Positions 10,638 to 27,621 of a stretch of 28,137 nt of DNA are shown one piece after another; position 1 is the first letter of the stretch, and the number at the start of each line of letters is the position of its first letter. Made by a program: the position numbers and the translations under genes. The notes beneath the pieces are model-generated. The model saw only the letters and a program-made list of their open reading frames with translations. It was not told where the DNA came from and searched no databases. The stretch comes from a virus. The stretch lies in the IMG/VR virus record IMGVR_UViG_3300009151_000298, positions 1-28,137 of that record, one strand, 5' to 3'.

Positions 10638-11498
10638 ATGTTAATTACTGATATAAAATGGTTACATATCGAAGCAACTTCAAAATGCAATGCATGGTGT
10701 CCGGCCTGCTCTCGTAATCAAAATGGGTATGGTATAACACCTGGACTAATTGAACAAGATTTATCTGTAGATAAATTCAAACAAGTTATAGAGCAATGTT
10801 CTAAACTTAGTGGCATTCAATTTTGTGGTAATTTTGGAGATCCCATCGCCGCCAATAACATATTACAATTAATTGATCTTGCCAAATCCGCAGCGGATAA
10901 GATACAGATACATACCAATGGCGGTCTGCGTAGTAAAGCATGGTGGGAAAGATTAGCCAATAATCTTAAAGATATCGACCATGACGTATGGTTTGGGATA
11001 GATGGTATCGGTCCAACACATGAAATTTATCGCCAAGGAACCAAATATCAAAAAGTAATTGATAATGCACAAGCATTTATCGCTGCCGGGGGAACAGCAA
11101 CTTGGCAATTTATTCCATATGCACATAATCAACATCAATTAACAGACTGTATTAAACTAAGCCAACAATATAAATTTAAAAAGTTTAAAGTAATAAAAAG
11201 TTTTAGGTCTACGCAAGATGTAAAACATTGGAAGACTGGCAAATCATTTCGATTAGAACCCAGTGATCTATATAAAACAATATTCTTCTCACCAAAAAAA
11301 GGAATTTTAGAAAAGGAAAATTGTATGCATCTTGAACAGCCCAGCATCTATGTTGCTGCATCTGGAAAAATAAGCCCATGTTGTTATTTTTCAGAACACA
11401 AATCATTCAACTCCGTTAATGATATGTTGCATAATTTGGATATAACAACATCACTTAATACACCCGACAATGTATGTTCATCTAATTGTGGCACATGA
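10638..11498 (+). CDS. Radical SAM protein with SPASM-like C-terminal cysteines
   Basis: A 286-residue enzyme expected to use a [4Fe-4S] cluster and S-adenosylmethionine for radical chemistry. The cluster motif CX3CX2C is Cys17, Cys21, Cys24 (CNAWCPAC). A Gly-rich stretch (FCGNFGDPIA) takes the place of the usual GGEP motif, and IHTNGG and FGIDG follow as in radical SAM barrels. The C-terminal 60 residues hold six Cys (NCMHLEQ, SPCCYF, VCSSNC), consistent with a SPASM/twitch auxiliary cluster. SPASM enzymes often modify peptides, but substrate is unknown. There is no clear Shine-Dalgarno before ATG 10638. The next gene starts one base after the stop. Confidence 0.8.
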   Translation: MLITDIKWLHIEATSKCNAWCPACSRNQNGYGITPGLIEQDLSVDKFKQVIEQCSKLSGIQFCGNFGDPIAANNILQLIDLAKSAADKIQIHTNGGLRSKAWWERLANNLKDIDHDVWFGIDGIGPTHEIYRQGTKYQKVIDNAQAFIAAGGTATWQFIPYAHNQHQLTDCIKLSQQYKFKKFKVIKSFRSTQDVKHWKTGKSFRLEPSDLYKTIFFSPKKGILEKENCMHLEQPSIYVAASGKISPCCYFSEHKSFNSVNDMLHNLDITTSLNTPDNVCSSNCGT

Positions 11499-13137: not shown

Positions 13138-13578
13138 ATGACGAAAATCACAGCACTAGATCTAACCCCGTTTTATCGTAATTCCATTGGCATTGATCGT
13201 TTATTTGACCGCATCGTAAATCAAATCGATCATGCAACAACAGCACCTGGATACCCACCCTATAACATCTTAAAAGTCAGTGATGATAATTTTGAAATAC
13301 AAGTGGCGGTAGCCGGATTTACGCAAGGTGATATCGACGTAAATTTCCATGAAGGTGAATTGGTTATTACTGGAGAAAAGAAAACAGAACCTGGTCCAGA
13401 AATTGTATTCCAACATCAGGGCATTAGCGCACGGAGATTTGTGCGTAGTTTTAGTTTAGCCGATTATGTTGAAGTCATTAATGCATCGGTTAAAGATGGT
13501 ATTCTTACTGTTGGACTAGAACGCCGTGTACCAGATGCAATGAAACCAAAAAGCATTGCAATTACGTATTCGAATTGA
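13138..13578 (+). CDS. Small heat shock protein Hsp20 (IbpA-like)
   Basis: A 146-residue ATP-independent chaperone expected to hold unfolding proteins in the cytoplasm. It follows the IbpA layout: an N-terminal arm with LTPFYRNSIGIDRLFDRI, then GYPPYNI (about 38-44), an alpha-crystallin domain (about 45-130) with VAGFTQGDIDV, GELVITGEKK and the terminal DGILTVGLERRVPD, and a short tail with KSIAI resembling the I-x-I anchoring motif. AAAGGAGAA gives a strong ribosome binding site and the promoter can be read early or late, so expression may be high. T4-like cyanophages also carry Hsp20, so this is a known class of phage cargo. Confidence 0.93.
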   Translation: MTKITALDLTPFYRNSIGIDRLFDRIVNQIDHATTAPGYPPYNILKVSDDNFEIQVAVAGFTQGDIDVNFHEGELVITGEKKTEPGPEIVFQHQGISARRFVRSFSLADYVEVINASVKDGILTVGLERRVPDAMKPKSIAITYSN

Positions 13579-13594
13579 TGTAATTGTGTAAATA

Positions 13595-13621
13595 CAGCAA
13601 AGGGTATTTTGCCCTTTGCTG
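13595..13621 (+). other. 10-bp hairpin between hsp20 and clpS
   Basis: Bases 13595-13604 (CAGCAAAGGG) pair perfectly with 13612-13621 (CCCTTTGCTG) around a 7-base loop. No T run follows, so it is not a standard intrinsic terminator; it could be an mRNA processing or stabilising element. GTAAATA immediately upstream (13588-13594) is a weak late-promoter lookalike. ClpS starts 19 bases downstream. Confidence 0.5.
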
Positions 13622-13640
13622 CAACCACCAAGGAATTGAC

Positions 13641-13949
13641 ATGTCACAATCTGATACAACTACAAAAACAAAAATCAATACTTCCGTTAAAGAACCACCT
13701 CTGTATAAAGTGATTTATATTAATGATAGCATCACCAGCATGGAATTTGTTGTTCAAACTTTGGTTAATTTTTTCGATTATAATTCCCAGACAGCCATGA
13801 AGATCACAGAGGATATACATGAAGCTGGATCGGCTGTGGTTGCAATCTGTCCTTTTGAAATTGCAGAACAGAAAGGCATCGAAGTTACTATCTGTGCTCG
13901 TTCAGAAAACTTCCCTTTACAGATTAAACTAGAACCAGAAACTGCATAA
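13641..13949 (+). CDS. clpS: ATP-dependent Clp protease adaptor ClpS
   Basis: A 102-residue adaptor that in bacteria delivers N-degron substrates to ClpA(P). I choose ATG 13641, with AAGGA upstream; an earlier ATG at 13584 runs through the hairpin and is unlikely. The core matches ClpS: YKVIYINDSITSMEFVVQTL, where the acidic ND and M-E-F-V-V line the N-degron pocket; then FFDYNSQTAMKITEDIHEAGSAVVAI and a terminal PLQIKLEPE. The N-terminal 20 residues are a Thr/Ser/Lys-rich flexible arm, as usual. It may redirect host ClpAP or work with the ClpP-like protease encoded at 25719-26288. Confidence 0.92.
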   Translation: MSQSDTTTKTKINTSVKEPPLYKVIYINDSITSMEFVVQTLVNFFDYNSQTAMKITEDIHEAGSAVVAICPFEIAEQKGIEVTICARSENFPLQIKLEPETA

Positions 13950-14930: not shown

Positions 14931-14962
14931 CCACAGAATAACTATACAGCTTGTATGTAGAG

Positions 14963-14993
14963 CTAAATATGTTATGCTATCATTTGATGATAG
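14963..14993 (+). promoter_or_regulatory. Late-type promoter element and leader hairpin of the porin gene
   Basis: CTAAATA (14963-14969) resembles a late promoter. Directly after it CTATCAT (14977-14983) pairs with ATGATAG (14987-14993) around a 3-base loop. The hairpin ends 20 bases before the porin ATG and just before AAAAGGA. A weak sigma-70 alternative is TTGTAT (14951) with TATGCT (14973). Confidence 0.4.
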
Positions 14994-15013
14994 ACTTTAA
15001 AAAAGGAAATATA

Positions 15014-15739
15014 ATGAAACAAGTAATTTTAGCAGTACTATTAGCAGTTGGCGCCGGCTTGGCCTATGCGGCAGATCCATCACCAGTTACTGGTAACTTT
15101 GGATTAACCACAGATTATAAACTACGTGGTATCAGCCAGTCACAAAATGGCTCGGCAGTACAAGGTGGTGTTGATTATGCTCCGGGCAACGGATTCTATA
15201 TTGGTAACTGGAATAGTTCAGTCAGCACACTGGTATACCGTAATGGCAACGGCATCCAAAGTGACATTTATGGTGGTTACAAGACAGAAGTTGCGAAAGG
15301 GATTACACTTGATGTAGGCTCTTACAATTATTTCTATCAACGTGCTACAAATGGCAACAATCCAAAGTTTGACACAAATGAAATTTACGTGGGTGTCGGC
15401 ACTGGACCGGTTGCAATCAAGTACAGCCGTTCACTTAGTGATTATTTTGGTGCAGTTAACAGCAAAGGTACACAATACTACCAAGCTGATGTTAGCTATC
15501 CGGTAGCAACAAAGTTAACGGCAGATGCACATATTGGTCGTACCAATGTTGCTAATTCTAACACCGCCGATTACACCGATTACAAACTTGGTGTGACTTA
15601 TAATATTACCGGTTGGAAAGTTGGCACACATTATTACACCAATGCTGGTTTAGGCTCAGCAGTACGTGTTGCTGACACAATAGATAATCGTCAGCTTTAC
15701 AAAAATGCAGTCGTGCTATCAGCAAGTAAATCATTTTAA
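15014..15739 (+). CDS. TorF-family (Gcw_chp) outer-membrane porin
   Basis: I choose ATG 15014 (241 residues), with AAAAGGA eight bases upstream; the ATG at 14951 would place a 21-residue extension before the signal peptide. Residues 1-19 are a classical signal peptide ending AYA before ADPSP. The mature part has the alternating pattern of a beta-barrel and the family opening (GNFGLTTDYKLRGISQS...AVQGGVDY), repeated strands ending in Tyr, and a C-terminal Phe (SASKSF), the usual Bam recognition end. Such porins are bacterial envelope proteins; finding one between phage genes suggests capture from a host. It may change host permeability or mask receptors. A bidirectional terminator follows. Confidence 0.85.
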   Translation: MKQVILAVLLAVGAGLAYAADPSPVTGNFGLTTDYKLRGISQSQNGSAVQGGVDYAPGNGFYIGNWNSSVSTLVYRNGNGIQSDIYGGYKTEVAKGITLDVGSYNYFYQRATNGNNPKFDTNEIYVGVGTGPVAIKYSRSLSDYFGAVNSKGTQYYQADVSYPVATKLTADAHIGRTNVANSNTADYTDYKLGVTYNITGWKVGTHYYTNAGLGSAVRVADTIDNRQLYKNAVVLSASKSF

Positions 15740-15790: not shown

Positions 15791-16876
15791 CTAGGGTTTA
15801 ATATGCCAATTAGACTGACATCTTTGTTTGACAGCTTCTATTGCTTGGGTAGCATTTGTTTTATATTCTTGCATGATCTGTTCAAAGAAACTATCTGAGA
15901 AGAATCTTTCTCGATTACGTGCAGCAATTATATTAAGTTTGGAAAATAGTTCTATTTTTTCTAAGATTGGTAATTGAGTTATTCTTTTCATTTCTGCTAC
16001 AACTGCGTCCATTCTTGCTACCGGATCAATAATAGTATCATATGATTCGTCTAGTAGATCGCCAAAAGTTTCAAATCCATATCGACGTAAGTATTCCAAA
16101 CTGCTGTGTGTGGCCATTAACATAAATGGTTGTTGACATGCAATAGGTCGCAATGTTTTCTCAGTAAGATGTAATCTATCATCATCAAACAATGTTTCCA
16201 ACACAATCTCTATGTTACTTGTAATATAATCAAATGAAGTATAGTCGGCGCTGGCTGCACTATCAACAGTATTTAAATCGTAATATGATTCAAGGTCAGT
16301 ATGTATAGTCCATTTTTGATTATTATATATATGATCTAGATAATGGACAGTATCATCGACGGGTGCAAATCGAATATTGCAATATTCCTTAATATTGTTT
16401 TCTAATAGCATTTCGGCAAATCGCAGTCTATATTCTCGTGTGCCTTGCCATGCTCTATTATAGATTAAAAAATCATATCTATCTTCTCTTTTCTGTAGCA
16501 ATACACTATCATGTTTAGCATATCTAAACCAATCTTGTGCTATTATAGCATGACTCCAATAATAGATATCAATAATATTATGCTGTCTGAACATATCTAG
16601 TTGTTTTGATCGCTGCTCAGAATGACACAATATTCTATTATCTACAATCATAAATCGTTGTTGCATAGAATTATTTTTAAATATTTTAAAATCTAAAGGT
16701 TCTTGATCATGACAAACTAGTTTATATGTGACAGAATTTACATTGGAAGAATACTCTCTTAGTAATATTAAATTCTCCCAATTCTTTGTTCCGTGTGGAA
16801 AGAAATAATAAATTACAATAGGACTATCTGAAAAATTCTCTAGGAAATGATATAATCGATCTAAAGGAATACTCAT
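15791..16876 (-). CDS. Glycosyltransferase-like phage protein
   Basis: A 361-residue protein on the minus strand. At about residues 232-280 there is a segment DRLHLTEKTLRPIACQQPF followed by LEYLRRYGFETF and LLDESYD. The TEKxxRPIA block resembles the nucleotide-sugar-binding end of fucosyltransferase-like glycosyltransferases (an xTEKxxxAL motif) and recurs in phage proteins of this size. No DXD motif could be assigned with confidence. The N-terminal half has many aromatic residues and no membrane span. The ATG at 16876 has no clear Shine-Dalgarno. It diverges from an oxygenase-like gene 29 bases away. It could glycosylate a virion or host surface component. The fold assignment is tentative. 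Confidence 0.5.
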   Translation of the reverse strand: MSIPLDRLYHFLENFSDSPIVIYYFFPHGTKNWENLILLREYSSNVNSVTYKLVCHDQEPLDFKIFKNNSMQQRFMIVDNRILCHSEQRSKQLDMFRQHNIIDIYYWSHAIIAQDWFRYAKHDSVLLQKREDRYDFLIYNRAWQGTREYRLRFAEMLLENNIKEYCNIRFAPVDDTVHYLDHIYNNQKWTIHTDLESYYDLNTVDSAASADYTSFDYITSNIEIVLETLFDDDRLHLTEKTLRPIACQQPFMLMATHSSLEYLRRYGFETFGDLLDESYDTIIDPVARMDAVVAEMKRITQLPILEKIELFSKLNIIAARNRERFFSDSFFEQIMQEYKTNATQAIEAVKQRCQSNWHIKP

Positions 16877-16905
16877 AATATGTGTTTGCTAAATATAAAG
16901 TAGTT

Positions 16906-17424
16906 ATGAATACTGCGACTATCATCAAATATAATATTTTGAAATTTTGGGATGATGAATTTAAATCTCTGACTTATATCAACGAAGATTTCAATGATGT
17001 AGAAAAATTAGAATTATGGAAAGCTCAGGGATATTCTAGCAAGGTAACTGGAGATATGTGCGATATGCGCGATAAACAACCGAGTTGGAATTGGAAATTT
17101 ATCAAGCATTATGCTGCACTGGGATGGAAAGATATTGGTACAAGTTACTATCGCATGTCTACTGGCACGGTGCTACCCACACATGGTGATCTCTATTTGC
17201 GATATATTTCATTATTCAATTTACAAGGTCGAGAACATACTATACGCCGAGCAGTGATATTTTTAGAAGATTGGCAACCGGGACACTACTCTGAACAATT
17301 GGATAAACCATACGTAAATTGGCAAGCTGGCGACACAGTTGAATGGGCGTATGATACGTCACACATGGCTGCTAATCTTGGTCTTGCTCCGCGATATACA
17401 TTGCAACTCACCGGACATGTTTAG
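16906..17424 (+). CDS. 2OG-Fe(II) oxygenase-like (aspartyl/asparaginyl hydroxylase type) protein
   Basis: A probable iron-dependent dioxygenase that would hydroxylate a protein or small molecule using 2-oxoglutarate. I choose ATG 16906 (172 residues) over GTG 16882, which would start inside the intergenic region. The jelly-roll signature is HGD at His93-Asp95 (LPTHGDLYLRY), distal His153 (TSHMAANLG) and Arg163 (PRYTLQLTG), the HxD...H...R set that holds iron and 2OG. The spacing and the RRAVIFLEDW strand resemble the AspH family. It is shorter than eukaryotic AspH, as in other phages. The stop touches the GTG start of the amidinotransferase, so the two may act together. Confidence 0.7.
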   Translation: MNTATIIKYNILKFWDDEFKSLTYINEDFNDVEKLELWKAQGYSSKVTGDMCDMRDKQPSWNWKFIKHYAALGWKDIGTSYYRMSTGTVLPTHGDLYLRYISLFNLQGREHTIRRAVIFLEDWQPGHYSEQLDKPYVNWQAGDTVEWAYDTSHMAANLGLAPRYTLQLTGHV

Positions 17425-18339
17425 GTGATATCATCATTTAATGAATGGGATCCGTTGCGAGAAGTGGTAGTAGGATCAGCAACTGGAGCAAATTGGCCAA
17501 GCGCAGATCCAGTATTTGCAATGGAATATACTCGTACAAAATGGAAAGAAACTCCAGTACCATCTGGCGCTGTGCCACAATGGATAATTGATGAAGCCAA
17601 TGAGGATTTGGATATATTAGCAGCAACATTACATAATCTGGACATTGTTGTTCATAGACCTAAAGAAATAGATTTTGTTAAAACAGCTGGTATGTATAAT
17701 TATTGTCCACGAGATCGAATACTAGTTGCCGGATCAACTATGATAGATTGTGCAATGATGTATCCGTGTCGAGATCAAGAGATACATGCTTTAGCACATG
17801 TGGTTAATCGTGCAAAAACTGTAATAACCATGCAACGTGAGCATGGACTTGTATTTGATGCAGCCAACGTATGTAGACTGGGTGATACATGGATATATCT
17901 TGAAAGCGACAGTGGTAATCGCGCAGCATATAATTGGTTACAACAGCATTTCCCCACAGTTGATATTGAGCGATGTAATTTCTATGCAGGAGTACACATA
18001 GATTCAACTATCGTTCCATTACGTGAAGGATTGGTAATGTTAAATGCATCAAGGGTAACTGAAAACAATTGCCCACGAGCATTTGATAATTGGGATAAGA
18101 TTTGGATTGATAATGTACATGAACAGAATTTTCATCAATATCCCTATGCAAGTAAATGGATAGCAATGAATGTTTTAGTAGTTGATCCACATACAGTTAT
18201 TGTTGATAAACATCAGAAAAACATAATAGATAAACTAACGCAGTACAATTTTACTGTTATACCATTGGAACTACGACATAGTAGAACGCTAGGTGGTGGA
18301 TTTCATTGTACCACGTTAGATATAGTACGAGATATATAG
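17425..18339 (+). CDS. Amidinotransferase (glycine/inosamine amidinotransferase family)
   Basis: A 304-residue enzyme expected to move an amidino group, usually from arginine, onto an amine. The family's conserved blocks are present in order: NEWDPLREVVVG (6-17), YNYCPRDRILVAG, FDAANV with Asp145, HIDSTIVPLREGLVMLN with His191, and the terminal GGGFHCTT with Cys295. His-Cys spacing is 104 residues, the same as His303-Cys407 in human glycine amidinotransferase, and Asp145 fits its Asp254. No signal peptide. The GTG start follows the previous stop directly, with no clear ribosome binding site, so translation is probably coupled to the oxygenase. Substrate could be glycine, a modified amino acid or a nucleic acid base; the sequence does not say. 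Confidence 0.88.
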   Translation: MISSFNEWDPLREVVVGSATGANWPSADPVFAMEYTRTKWKETPVPSGAVPQWIIDEANEDLDILAATLHNLDIVVHRPKEIDFVKTAGMYNYCPRDRILVAGSTMIDCAMMYPCRDQEIHALAHVVNRAKTVITMQREHGLVFDAANVCRLGDTWIYLESDSGNRAAYNWLQQHFPTVDIERCNFYAGVHIDSTIVPLREGLVMLNASRVTENNCPRAFDNWDKIWIDNVHEQNFHQYPYASKWIAMNVLVVDPHTVIVDKHQKNIIDKLTQYNFTVIPLELRHSRTLGGGFHCTTLDIVRDI

Positions 18340-18724: not shown

Positions 18725-19765
18725 ATGCGTGGTAAAATTGGTTTTGCTTGCAAATGGTTAAATGATCCATCCGAATGTGGCGGCATGAAGGTGAATGCCG
18801 TGGATCGTGACTTAAATGGCCGTAGTACCACCATGCGCTGGCTACGTGAACATCCAGCTGAAGCCGAACAACGTCAGTGGGACATAATGAATCACAATGC
18901 TGCGGCGGCTGTGAAAATGATCGAACGTGTGGGTAGTTTAGCACCCGAGTTACGTATGGTCAGACTAGGTAGTGAAATGCTACAAGGCTATACACAACAA
19001 GATTGGCAAGCCTGGTGGCAACGTAGAGAAATCCAGGATCATTTGGAACGTATATTTGCTCCTGTAGGCGAAACTGCCCGACGATTGGGTGTACGTATAA
19101 GTTTTCATCCTGGACAATTTTGTGTGCTGGCCAGTGTAAATGAAAACATTGTTGTTCGTAGTATAGAAGAGTTTGAATATCATGCAGATATGGCCCGGTG
19201 GATGGGGTTCGGCAAGAGTTTCCAGGATTTTAAAATCAATGTACACATCTCAGGTAGGCAAGGGCCCGAAGGAATCCGACGTGCTTGGAACAAGCTCAGT
19301 GTTGAAGCCCGCAACTGTATCACCATCGAAAATGAAGAAATAACACATGGACTTGCTGATTGTCTTAGTCTTGCCGATATTGTACCTTGTGTTCTTGACA
19401 TACATCATCACTTCATTAGAGAAGGGGAATACATACAACCTGACGATGACCGTGTGCAACAAGTTATTGATAGTTGGCGTGGGCTTCGTCCTACTATGCA
19501 CTATTCCGTCAGTCGTGAAGATCTACTCACAGATCATCCTGCCGATATTCTTCCAGATCTGGGCGCTTTGCTCTTAGCTGGACATAAAAAACAAAAGTTA
19601 AGGGCGCATTCGGACTTTTATTGGAATACAGCAGTAAACACATGGGCCGGTGGTTTTTGTGATCAGTTCGATATCATGTGCGAAAGTAAATCGAAGAACT
19701 TAGGTGCCCAACAGTTGTATAACTTCTGGAAAAACAACAAAGACGCGGTGAGTATTGTTTCTTAA
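18725..19765 (+). CDS. uvsE: UV damage endonuclease UvsE/UvdE
   Basis: A 346-residue TIM-barrel nuclease that nicks DNA 5' of UV photoproducts and other lesions. The family blocks are clear: IGFACKWLNDP start, MVRLGSEML, the metal-site strand RISFHPGQFCVLAS, NVHISG, ENEE (glutamate ligand), LDIHHH, and HYSVSRE...DHPADILP...AHSDFYWN. Length is typical of bacterial UvsE. It is preceded by a strong early-type promoter, so repair capacity would be made soon after infection. T4 uses the unrelated DenV for this job. The following gene has its own early promoter directly after the stop. Confidence 0.9.
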   Translation: MRGKIGFACKWLNDPSECGGMKVNAVDRDLNGRSTTMRWLREHPAEAEQRQWDIMNHNAAAAVKMIERVGSLAPELRMVRLGSEMLQGYTQQDWQAWWQRREIQDHLERIFAPVGETARRLGVRISFHPGQFCVLASVNENIVVRSIEEFEYHADMARWMGFGKSFQDFKINVHISGRQGPEGIRRAWNKLSVEARNCITIENEEITHGLADCLSLADIVPCVLDIHHHFIREGEYIQPDDDRVQQVIDSWRGLRPTMHYSVSREDLLTDHPADILPDLGALLLAGHKKQKLRAHSDFYWNTAVNTWAGGFCDQFDIMCESKSKNLGAQQLYNFWKNNKDAVSIVS

Positions 19766-25640: not shown

Positions 25641-25718
25641 TATAAGCAACCGCGGGTAGTTACAGACATAAGTATAGAATACAAAGACGTCGAATTGACC
25701 ATACTTCCTAAATTCTTA

Positions 25719-26288
25719 ATGACCACCCGAAAAATCAAAGATGAAGCATATTCAGCAGCTGACAAGATTGATTTTGGGTTGCTACATCAACACATACATT
25801 TTCTTAGTGGTGATATAGCAGAGGCAAATATTAGTGCTGCAATAAAATGGATTGTGTACGAAAATGCTGTAAATCCCGAAGCTATGCTTACCTTATACGT
25901 AAATTCCGAAGGTGGAGTATTGACAGATGCTTTTGCGTTAATTGATGTTATGTATAACTCAAAATGCAAAATCCAGACAATTGGATTGGGATCTATATGC
26001 TCAGCAGCTTTTCTAATATTTGTATCCGGTGCCAAAGGCAAGAGATTTATTTCTAAAAATACCAGTATCATGTGTCACCAATATACAGATGATGCAGCCG
26101 GTAAGTATCATGATCTGGCTGCCAGGATGAGAGAAACAAAATTTGCCAATGATCGAATGGTTGAGGTATTGACACGCAGTACCAATCTTGATGCTGCCAC
26201 GGTCTTGAAAAAACTATTGCCACCAAGCGATGTCTGGCTCACCCCCGAAGAACTGGTCAAATACGCCGGCGCCGATCAGATAATATAA
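25719..26288 (+). CDS. clpP: ClpP-like serine protease
   Basis: A self-compartmentalising protease subunit that would degrade proteins fed by an AAA+ unfoldase. Taking ATG 25719 (189 residues), the catalytic triad is Ser95 (GSICSAAFLIF), His120 (SIMCHQY) and Asp171 (PSDVWLTPEEL), at almost the E. coli mature positions (97, 122, 171). NSEGG (62-66) is the oxyanion-strand motif NSPGG with Pro replaced by Glu, and SGAKGKRFISKNTSIM is typical. No ATPase gene is in this window, so it may use a host ClpA/X. An upstream TTG (25695) is in frame without a Shine-Dalgarno. Phage ClpP folds also serve as prohead proteases, but no head genes are near. Confidence 0.85.
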   Translation: MTTRKIKDEAYSAADKIDFGLLHQHIHFLSGDIAEANISAAIKWIVYENAVNPEAMLTLYVNSEGGVLTDAFALIDVMYNSKCKIQTIGLGSICSAAFLIFVSGAKGKRFISKNTSIMCHQYTDDAAGKYHDLAARMRETKFANDRMVEVLTRSTNLDAATVLKKLLPPSDVWLTPEELVKYAGADQII

Positions 26289-26301
26289 CTTGCAGTTGAC
26301 C

Positions 26302-27621
26302 ATGCCATCCCAGTCTATATTCTGTAATGCTCCATGGTATGAACTGCAGATTTATTGGGACGGTAGTCTGGGTTTTTGCTGTCAAGAAGATCACAAAGTA
26401 TATCCAGACCATTTAAGTACTCATTACAACATACAAAACATAAGCATACAGGAGTGGATGGCCAGCGAACCAATGCAGGCAGCTCGTATGATGATGTTTG
26501 ATCATACACGAAACACCGTTTGTCGTCGTTGTTATATAGAAGAAGATCATAGTACTACCAGTAGACGTCATAGATCAAATCAAAAAAGTGTTATATTTAC
26601 ACGTACAAACTTTATAGAAAGTTATGAACAAAGTCCGGGTTACGATAAGTTTGAACTAAGTCGAAATTCACAAGGAGCATATGGTGGATTGCCTTTGGAT
26701 TTGCATATTGATTTAGGAAACTATTGCAATCTAACTTGCAAGATGTGCAATCCAAAAGCCAGTAGTAGTATTGCCTCACAATACGTTAAATGGGGTATTG
26801 CAGATGCTAAACAATACATAGGATCAGACTGGACTAGGAATAATACTGTTTGGACTAGAGTGCTGACCGAGATAGCTAATATTCCTAATCTTAGCAATGT
26901 ACACTTCATGGGAGGAGAAACACTTATAACTAAACGCTTTGAAGATTTTATTGATTTTATGATCGCATATAATAGATTTGATTTACATTTTAGTTTTGTT
27001 ACTAATGGAACACAATTCAATGAGTCATTGTTACTCAAATTAAAAAAGTTTAAGCGTGTAGGAATAGAAGTCAGTATCGAAACGCTAACAGCACATAATG
27101 CATATCAACGTCAAGGAACAAATACTGCACAAGTATTAACCAATATTGATCGCTATCTAACACATTGCAATAACACAAATATCACACTGACAATACGTCC
27201 GGCAATAAGCGCATTGACCATCGGACACTATGATACCTTATTACGATTTTGCCTTGAACGTAATCTTGTAGTTAAGGGATTGATAGTATTTGATCCAGAA
27301 TTTCTAGATGTGCGTGTTTTGCCTATATTAGTTCGCAATGCATATAAACAAAAATATCTCAATCTCATAACAGAATACAAGTTGGATCAGGTCGATTGTA
27401 CACGTGACTACAACGAAAGCGATCCAAATCAAATAAGTAGCCAGGTTAAAAATCAAATTCTACAATGCATAAATCTATTAGATGCAACTGCTTTACCCAA
27501 CAGTGACGAATTGTTGACTGCAATGGTGTCATGGTGTCGTAAGTGGGATACGGTACATGCATACAATGCATTAGAATTATATCCAGAATTACGTGATGAA
27601 TTTATTACCCGTGGATACTAA
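26302..27621 (+). CDS. Radical SAM protein with N-terminal twitch-type cluster
   Basis: I choose ATG 26302 (439 residues) over the TTG twelve bases before, because the conserved FCNAPW follows at once. An N-terminal region (FCNAPWYELQIYWDGSLGFCCQ, with Cys8, Cys26, Cys27, then Cys74 and Cys77 in VCRRC) looks like an auxiliary twitch cluster placed before the radical SAM barrel. The SAM cluster is Cys142, Cys146, Cys149 (CNLTCKMC), followed by MGGETL (GGE motif), SFVTNGT and SIE. I recognise this arrangement from other tailed phages; substrate unknown. The 3' end overlaps the next gene. It is distinct from the radical SAM gene at 10638, whose extra Cys lie at the C-terminus. Confidence 0.85.
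   Translation: MPSQSIFCNAPWYELQIYWDGSLGFCCQEDHKVYPDHLSTHYNIQNISIQEWMASEPMQAARMMMFDHTRNTVCRRCYIEEDHSTTSRRHRSNQKSVIFTRTNFIESYEQSPGYDKFELSRNSQGAYGGLPLDLHIDLGNYCNLTCKMCNPKASSSIASQYVKWGIADAKQYIGSDWTRNNTVWTRVLTEIANIPNLSNVHFMGGETLITKRFEDFIDFMIAYNRFDLHFSFVTNGTQFNESLLLKLKKFKRVGIEVSIETLTAHNAYQRQGTNTAQVLTNIDRYLTHCNNTNITLTIRPAISALTIGHYDTLLRFCLERNLVVKGLIVFDPEFLDVRVLPILVRNAYKQKYLNLITEYKLDQVDCTRDYNESDPNQISSQVKNQILQCINLLDATALPNSDELLTAMVSWCRKWDTVHAYNALELYPELRDEFITRGY

Follow-up and report, generated by a model that had tools for sequence, protein, structure and literature searches.

An oxygenase–amidinotransferase gene pair facing a glycosyltransferase-like gene in phage contigs, with a possible role in glycan tailoring

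The locus described here lies in a linear virus record of the IMG/VR database (IMGVR_UViG_3300009151_000298), a fragment of 28,137 bases that was analyzed over its whole length and is hereafter referred to as the window. The window carries phage-like genes, for a pectate-lyase-type tail spike, a class Ia ribonucleotide reductase, a glutaredoxin, a PAAR-like protein, an NAD-dependent DNA ligase, Hsp20, ClpS, a ClpP-like protease, UvdE and radical S-adenosylmethionine (SAM) proteins. Our subject is a group of three adjacent genes, in which the gene of a glycosyltransferase-like protein (GT) diverges from an operon encoding a 2-oxoglutarate (2OG)-Fe(II) oxygenase (OX) and an amidinotransferase (AT):

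15791–16876, minus strand: GT, glycosyltransferase-like protein of 361 aa with a predicted GT-B fold, divergent from the OX–AT operon
16877–16905: intergenic region of 29 bp from the GT start to the OX ATG, between divergent genes
16906–17424, plus strand: OX, predicted 2OG-Fe(II) oxygenase of 172 aa (alignment and AlphaFold2 model)
17182–17184 (H93), 17188–17190 (D95) and 17362–17364 (H153): predicted Fe ligands of OX; 17392–17394 (R163): its predicted 2OG-binding residue
17425–18339, plus strand: AT, predicted StrB/AGAT-type amidinotransferase of 304 aa with a GTG start (phmmer and alignment)
17857–17859 (D145), 17995–17997 (H191) and 18307–18309 (C295): predicted catalytic residues of AT, in which D97 and D193 are also conserved

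The start of OX was placed at the ATG at 16906, which is conserved in the alignment of relatives, rather than at the GTG listed at 16882, which is probably not used. This start gives OX its length of 172 aa and leaves a gap of 29 bases to the GT start, the distance given in a preliminary description of this DNA. The stop/start contact reported there is also seen, since the TAG of OX (17422–17424) directly abuts the GTG of AT (17425). Promoter-like sites were no more common than in shuffled sequences, and the sole terminator-like site falls inside AT; we therefore claim neither a promoter nor a terminator.

AT had been read as a complete amidinotransferase with Asp145, His191 and Cys295 at its active site, and this reading held. 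In phmmer searches, AT matched StrB1 (1bwd) at E=1e-66, in two stretches covering residues 2–117 and 142–302, and human AGAT (1jdx) at 3e-25, and StrB1 was the closest solved structure, ahead of HsvA, SxtG and AGAT. The three residues align with the catalytic triad of StrB1 and AGAT (Asp254/His303/Cys407 in AGAT numbering; PMC3684758). By sequence similarity, AT is assigned to the StrB/AGAT family of amidinotransferases, with a pentein fold predicted from homology. The 300-flap positions of AT are occupied by A/S188 and V190, whereas glycine-using AGAT has Asn300 and Met302. Among the distinct orthologous proteins covering each position, His191 was kept in 104/104 and Cys295 in 102/102, and position 145 was Asp in 92 of 104 proteins and Glu in the other 12 (L013, L014, L016, L018, L019, L020, L022, L023, L024, L029, L037 and L122), all of which retain the His and Cys residues. 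The OX-linked phage ATs formed a single clade in a tree of 67 proteins (support 100/100). Comparison with the nearest relative, L049, yielded ratios of nonsynonymous to synonymous substitution rates (dN/dS) of 0.10 for AT, 0.17 for OX and 0.24 for GT; the three genes are under purifying selection. In the AT of this relative (L049:10001–10915), a Tyr replaces the otherwise invariant D193 beside the catalytic His (HVYST), which may be a genuine variant or an assembly error.

The gene directly before AT had been described as an HxD...H 2OG-Fe(II)-oxygenase-like gene, and both the fold and the conserved ligands agree with this. The motif of OX consists of H93-x-D95, H153 and R163; the first three of these residues are invariant in 103/103 distinct proteins, and the last is present in 102 and replaced with Lys in one. 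The AlphaFold2 model (pLDDT, the predicted local distance difference test score, of 93; 31 aligned sequences) is a double-stranded beta-helix, with 3dkq, a putative oxygenase, as a neighbour at Z 14.8 (2.8 Å over 149 residues), followed by PiuC (Z 14.3), a bacterial prolyl-4-hydroxylase (Z 13.5) and many other 2OG oxygenases at Z 12–14. The model therefore predicts a 2OG-Fe(II) oxygenase fold with confidence. Small double-stranded beta-helix oxygenases (Asp_Arg_Hydrox PF05118, PiuC and the bacterial prolyl-4-hydroxylase) share the HxD...H...R motif and the fold, but OX had no match to any Pfam model and no credible sequence match among solved structures. PF05118 left the window OX unmatched and matched 14/32 of its relatives at E<=0.1 (best 1.6e-4). 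Only one of the 291 Bdellovibrionota genomes scanned contained OX, so there is no broad bacterial family in that phylum.

The divergent GT had no Pfam family and no sequence match in the PDB, and its conserved C-terminal motif is LTEK..RPIA..PF.L.......L..YGF.TF....ESYD. Its AlphaFold2 model (pLDDT 91) predicts a GT-B fold of two Rossmann-like domains, in line with the glycosyltransferase-like label of the preliminary description; the best structural neighbours shown were all GT-B glycosyltransferases (Z 9–12), including T4 beta-glucosyltransferase (BGT; Z 12.2), POGLUT (Z 10.9) and a fucosyltransferase (Z 10.9). Because T4 BGT leads the remaining GT-B enzymes by little, the ranking was not used to infer an acceptor.

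The two operon genes are linked in relatives as well, large phages of freshwater that number in the hundreds. A scan of IMG/VR with AT yielded 53 loci, nearly all with OX directly upstream and most with GT and UvdE nearby, and the reverse scan with an OX profile yielded at least 591 relatives. Among the best 78 OX loci, AT was directly downstream in 75 and one gene further in two, and a contig end cut the remaining one, so that the pair co-occurred in 77/77 testable loci. The preliminary description had made its reading depend on such co-occurrence and on intact active sites in orthologues, and both were found, with the substitution at position 145 of AT noted above. OX and AT lay within 60 bp of each other in 98/101 distinct loci, whereas AT and UvdE did so in only 25/85, at distances of up to 9.3 kb; the pair is thus tighter than its surroundings. 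The linkage of OX and AT is near-obligate.

This linkage extends beyond the main clade. OX adjoins AT, or lies within a few kilobases of it, in a second lineage comprising marine phage contigs (L048, L050 and L167) and a Bdellovibrionota contig (L165). On the latter, the OX–AT pair is accompanied by a pyridoxal phosphate (PLP) aminotransferase-like gene and a GT of the window-GT family, and this set stands beside chromosomal genes, SpoIID and, as read from the sequence, an excinuclease UvrC-like protein. A 62%-identical match filed under Bacteroidetes (L135) was rejected as a bacterial homologue, since it lies on a 4.4-kb phage-like contig within a metagenome-assembled genome. L195, filed as Chloroflexi although the contig looks phage-like, has a 2OG oxygenase other than OX immediately before AT and a GT immediately after it; the same row (L195:2570–16208) also contains radical SAM, DegT-like, NodU-type carbamoyltransferase and tryptophan-halogenase-like genes.

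Most relatives have a longer operon, in which a gene for a nucleotide-sugar 6-dehydrogenase of about 410 aa is found between GT and OX and is faced by GT. The dehydrogenase and OX genes were within 60 bp in 72/75 loci holding both, and they usually overlapped (median gap −17 bp). The dehydrogenase is absent between GT and OX in about a third of relatives and in the window; L010, L042 and L049, too, are without it there. Among the large records of relatives (n=19 or 20, up to 364 kb, possibly incomplete), the dehydrogenase was present in 17/20. Two of these 17, the L077 and L124 records, have the gene more than 100 kb away from OX–AT, so that it has been kept even where it is separated from the pair. 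The protein matched PF03721 (1.5e-13) and PF00984 (6e-15), the N-terminal and central UDPG_MGDP_dh domains, and solved UDP-glucose 6-dehydrogenases at about 1e-13. Its predicted catalytic residues were present in nearly all aligned copies (Cys 76/76; Lys, Asn and Thr each 74/74; Asp 74/76).

Sugar-related genes recur across the large records. The GT family was matched in 19/19 of them, at 1–14 places each, further AT-like penteins were found in most, and a search for aminotransferases, which covered the DegT type only, detected DegT sugar aminotransferases in 15/20. Of 26 AT-like paralogs, 16 lay no more than 10 kb from a DegT gene, against 3.2 expected under random placement, although these genomes are related and the events are not independent. 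One cluster combines a PIG-L deacetylase, DegT, an NAD-epimerase, two GTs of the window-GT family and an AT-like gene, and other clusters are similar. Four of the AT-like paralogs (L217:677–1720, L219:882–1907, L221:6364–7383 and L218:2170–3186) keep the His and Cys residues with an Asn in place of the catalytic Asp, and several of them are near DegT-type genes. In large phages, the space that separates sugar genes from GT/AT-like genes encodes proteins of about 1456, 998 and 600 aa (L217:3950–8320, L219:4167–7163 and L221:2320–4122); the longest is built up from numerous repeats (..PDPGDPPYIYVFGNQW....MPGATERKYM..). The abundance of AT-like and GT paralogs in these genomes suggests a larger, as yet unread programme of sugar chemistry in these phages.

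We propose that OX and AT catalyze two successive steps in a glycan-tailoring pathway encoded by the phage, which would yield a hydroxylated, guanidinylated sugar or conjugate, a proposal to which we assign an about even chance. Where the operon has its common, longer form, the dehydrogenase, judged by its family and catalytic residues, would convert a nucleoside diphosphate (NDP)-hexose into an NDP-uronic acid. OX, judged by its fold, would hydroxylate the sugar or one of its substituents, or oxidize it in another way. AT, by homology, would transfer the amidino group of L-arginine to a primary amine of the intermediate, forming a guanidino group and releasing ornithine, in a reaction analogous to that of StrB1 on inosamine phosphate. 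The divergent GT-B enzyme may then attach the product to an acceptor, which would most probably be a structure on the surface of the virion or of the host. The preliminary description had placed hydroxylation before amidino transfer, which is one possible order, and had offered an amino acid, a surface sugar or a modified base as acceptor. The surface sugar is the best supported of these, given the overlap of the dehydrogenase and OX genes, the GT-B fold, the DegT aminotransferases, the epimerases and the AT-like genes in GT clusters; the modified base is disfavoured, no ThyA-family enzyme having turned up in 19 large records, and an amino-acid product of OX and AT may still be formed. A more specific version, in which large freshwater phages use a dehydrogenase–oxygenase–amidinotransferase operon to make a guanidino-uronic or guanidino-amino sugar whose positive charge masks or alters virion or host surface glycans, is put forward only tentatively, and we think it rather doubtful as it stands. 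If true, it would bring into viruses a streptidine-like chemistry not known in them. The three-gene unit and its clear product predictions (a gain of 42 Da and the release of ornithine) make the pathway directly testable.

Several observations weigh against a glycan pathway of this kind. The nearest folds to that of OX belong to hydroxylases of proteins and small molecules, and none of them to a known sugar oxygenase. The window itself contains neither a dehydrogenase nor an aminotransferase, although it is a fragment. The dehydrogenase scores 135.3 bits, below the TIGR03026 cut-off of 189.8, and is therefore a divergent relative. The OX-linked AT was within 10 kb of DegT in 0/19 records, which places the amine-supplying step outside the operon, and most of the AT-like paralogs that are near DegT carry Asn at the position of Asp145, with His and Cys kept, so their activity may differ. 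The initiating sugar transferase PF02397 was found in 0/19 large records; one common lipid-linked start of glycan synthesis is thus not seen, and host glycans, phage proteins and free sugars are all possible acceptors.

Among the alternatives, an auxiliary small-molecule pathway fares best, although we regard it as unlikely. AT would then make guanidinoacetate, homoarginine or a guanidino-polyamine as a free guanidino compound, OX would hydroxylate this compound or its precursor, and the product would serve host metabolism, nitrogen handling or osmoprotection instead of being attached to a glycan. The characterized relatives AGAT, CyrA and AmtA use free glycine, lysine or amines, the amidinotransferase HsvA acts on polyamines, and cellular homologues of AT (L136 and L138) adjoin an ATP-grasp ligase or a PLP decarboxylase, not GTs. 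An enrichment of a creatine-pathway gene in an ocean-virus survey points in the same direction, but the gene is GAMT and not AT (PMC11360552), and the creatine reading was dropped on this ground. Free small molecules leave both the dehydrogenase–OX overlap and the facing GT unexplained, and AT is closest to StrB1, with 300-flap residues unlike those of glycine-using AGAT.

Modification of proteins appears quite unlikely to us. In this case, OX would hydroxylate a protein of the virion or the host at one of its residues, which GT would glycosylate, and AT would amidinate either the sugar so attached or the side chains of lysines. The matches of the OX fold include the peptide-binding prolyl-4-hydroxylases and PHD2, the neighbours of GT include the protein O-glucosyltransferase POGLUT, and the absence of PF02397 fits a direct glycosylation of protein. 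Similarity in the double-stranded beta-helix fold does not, however, define a substrate, the dehydrogenase indicates sugar-nucleotide chemistry, and we know of no amidinotransferase of the AT family that uses protein lysine.

It is also improbable that OX and AT share no pathway and are neighbours merely because a whole phage block is conserved. The surroundings (Hsp20, ClpS, GT and UvdE) are likewise syntenic, but the spacing of the pair is far more constant than that between AT and UvdE, and OX also accompanies AT at close range in further AT lineages, namely the marine contigs, the Bdellovibrionota contig and Synechococcus phage S-SCSM2R, considered below. Hypermodification of DNA, with a hydroxylated, guanidinylated or glycosylated group on phage bases for restriction evasion, is given very little credence. 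The top rank of T4 BGT, an enzyme acting on hydroxymethylcytosine DNA, among the structural neighbours of GT speaks for it, but T4 BGT exceeds the remaining GT-B enzymes by a margin of only 1.3 Z. OX has no sequence match to Tet/JBP or AlkB models, and a ThyA-family deoxycytidine or deoxyuridine monophosphate (dCMP/dUMP) hydroxymethylase, which the best-known routes to hydroxymethyl-dC/dU require, was found in 0/19 large records, with the control detected in 9/14 genomes. A search of the relatives for Tet/JBP gave no match but had no positive control and carries no weight.

Other genes of the window were noted in passing. The regions 13584–13949, 25695–26288 and 13138–13578 encode a ClpS adaptor (PF02617, 6e-23), a ClpP-like protease and an IbpA-like Hsp20, and a protein of about 400 aa, ClpX-like by reading, is encoded upstream in 29 relatives (among L002–L054); a set of Clp protease genes carried by a phage together with the N-degron adaptor would merit separate attention. 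A divergent UvdE/UvsE UV-damage endonuclease (18725–19765; PF03851, 5e-29) is 99% identical to the L049 copy, and most relatives keep it in synteny with the operon. Two radical SAM proteins are encoded at 10638–11498 and 26290–27621, the second being a SPASM/twitch-domain protein (NF033640, above its cut-off). The region 14951–15739 encodes a Gcw_chp outer-membrane-type protein (PF09694, 6e-47) with a signal-peptide-like start and 92% identity to its L049 counterpart, so that this phage carries an outer membrane protein of bacterial type.

The closest known systems resemble the locus in part. StrB1, the L-arginine:inosamine-phosphate amidinotransferase of streptomycin biosynthesis, shares with AT similarity over the full length, the Asp/His/Cys triad, the GGGFHC motif, D97 and D193, but AT is about 40 residues shorter between its two halves, and its partner genes differ, being those of an oxygenase and an NDP-sugar dehydrogenase. 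AGAT, CyrA, SxtG, HsvA and AmtA belong to the same family and have the same triad; AGAT, SxtG and HsvA are less similar to AT (E 1e-25 to 1e-27) than StrB1 is. GT shares the GT-B fold with T4 BGT, GT90 POGLUT and GT10 fucosyltransferase over about 240–280 residues, at an identity of only 5–12%.

The preliminary description had stated that no phage system with this set was known, which is not quite right. Genes 307–310 of Synechococcus phage S-SCSM2R (PQ898602) place a GT, a 2OG oxygenase and an amidinotransferase side by side, as an annotation only. Its proteins are 35% (AT) and 26% (OX) identical to those of the window, its neighbouring GT was not matched by the window GT profile, and the set is part of a long cluster with multiple GTs and a DegT-like gene. 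In Campylobacter phages CP220 and CPt10, a putative glycine amidinotransferase was reported in 2010 within a radical SAM module (PMC2853527). As in the window, this phage-borne amidinotransferase (22% identical to AT) is accompanied by sugar-transferase-like genes, but radical SAM enzymes take the place of the oxygenase. The gene upstream of the Campylobacter phage amidinotransferase, of the same size and position as OX, was rejected as its homologue (5 bits over 27 residues). An amidinotransferase also appears in the virus table of a study of a gypsum karst lake (PMC8226683). Phage glycan genes, phage 2OG oxygenases and phage amidinotransferases are thus all known, and the S-SCSM2R set has been annotated; no paper describing the OX–AT pair or its operon with the dehydrogenase was found in the open-access library searched. 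As far as our searches show, the firm association of an arginine-dependent amidinotransferase with both an oxygenase and a sugar-nucleotide dehydrogenase, seen in hundreds of contigs from phages, is undescribed. If a guanidino sugar is made by this operon, it would represent a new viral surface chemistry, one that probably helps the phage to counter recognition or defence by the host.

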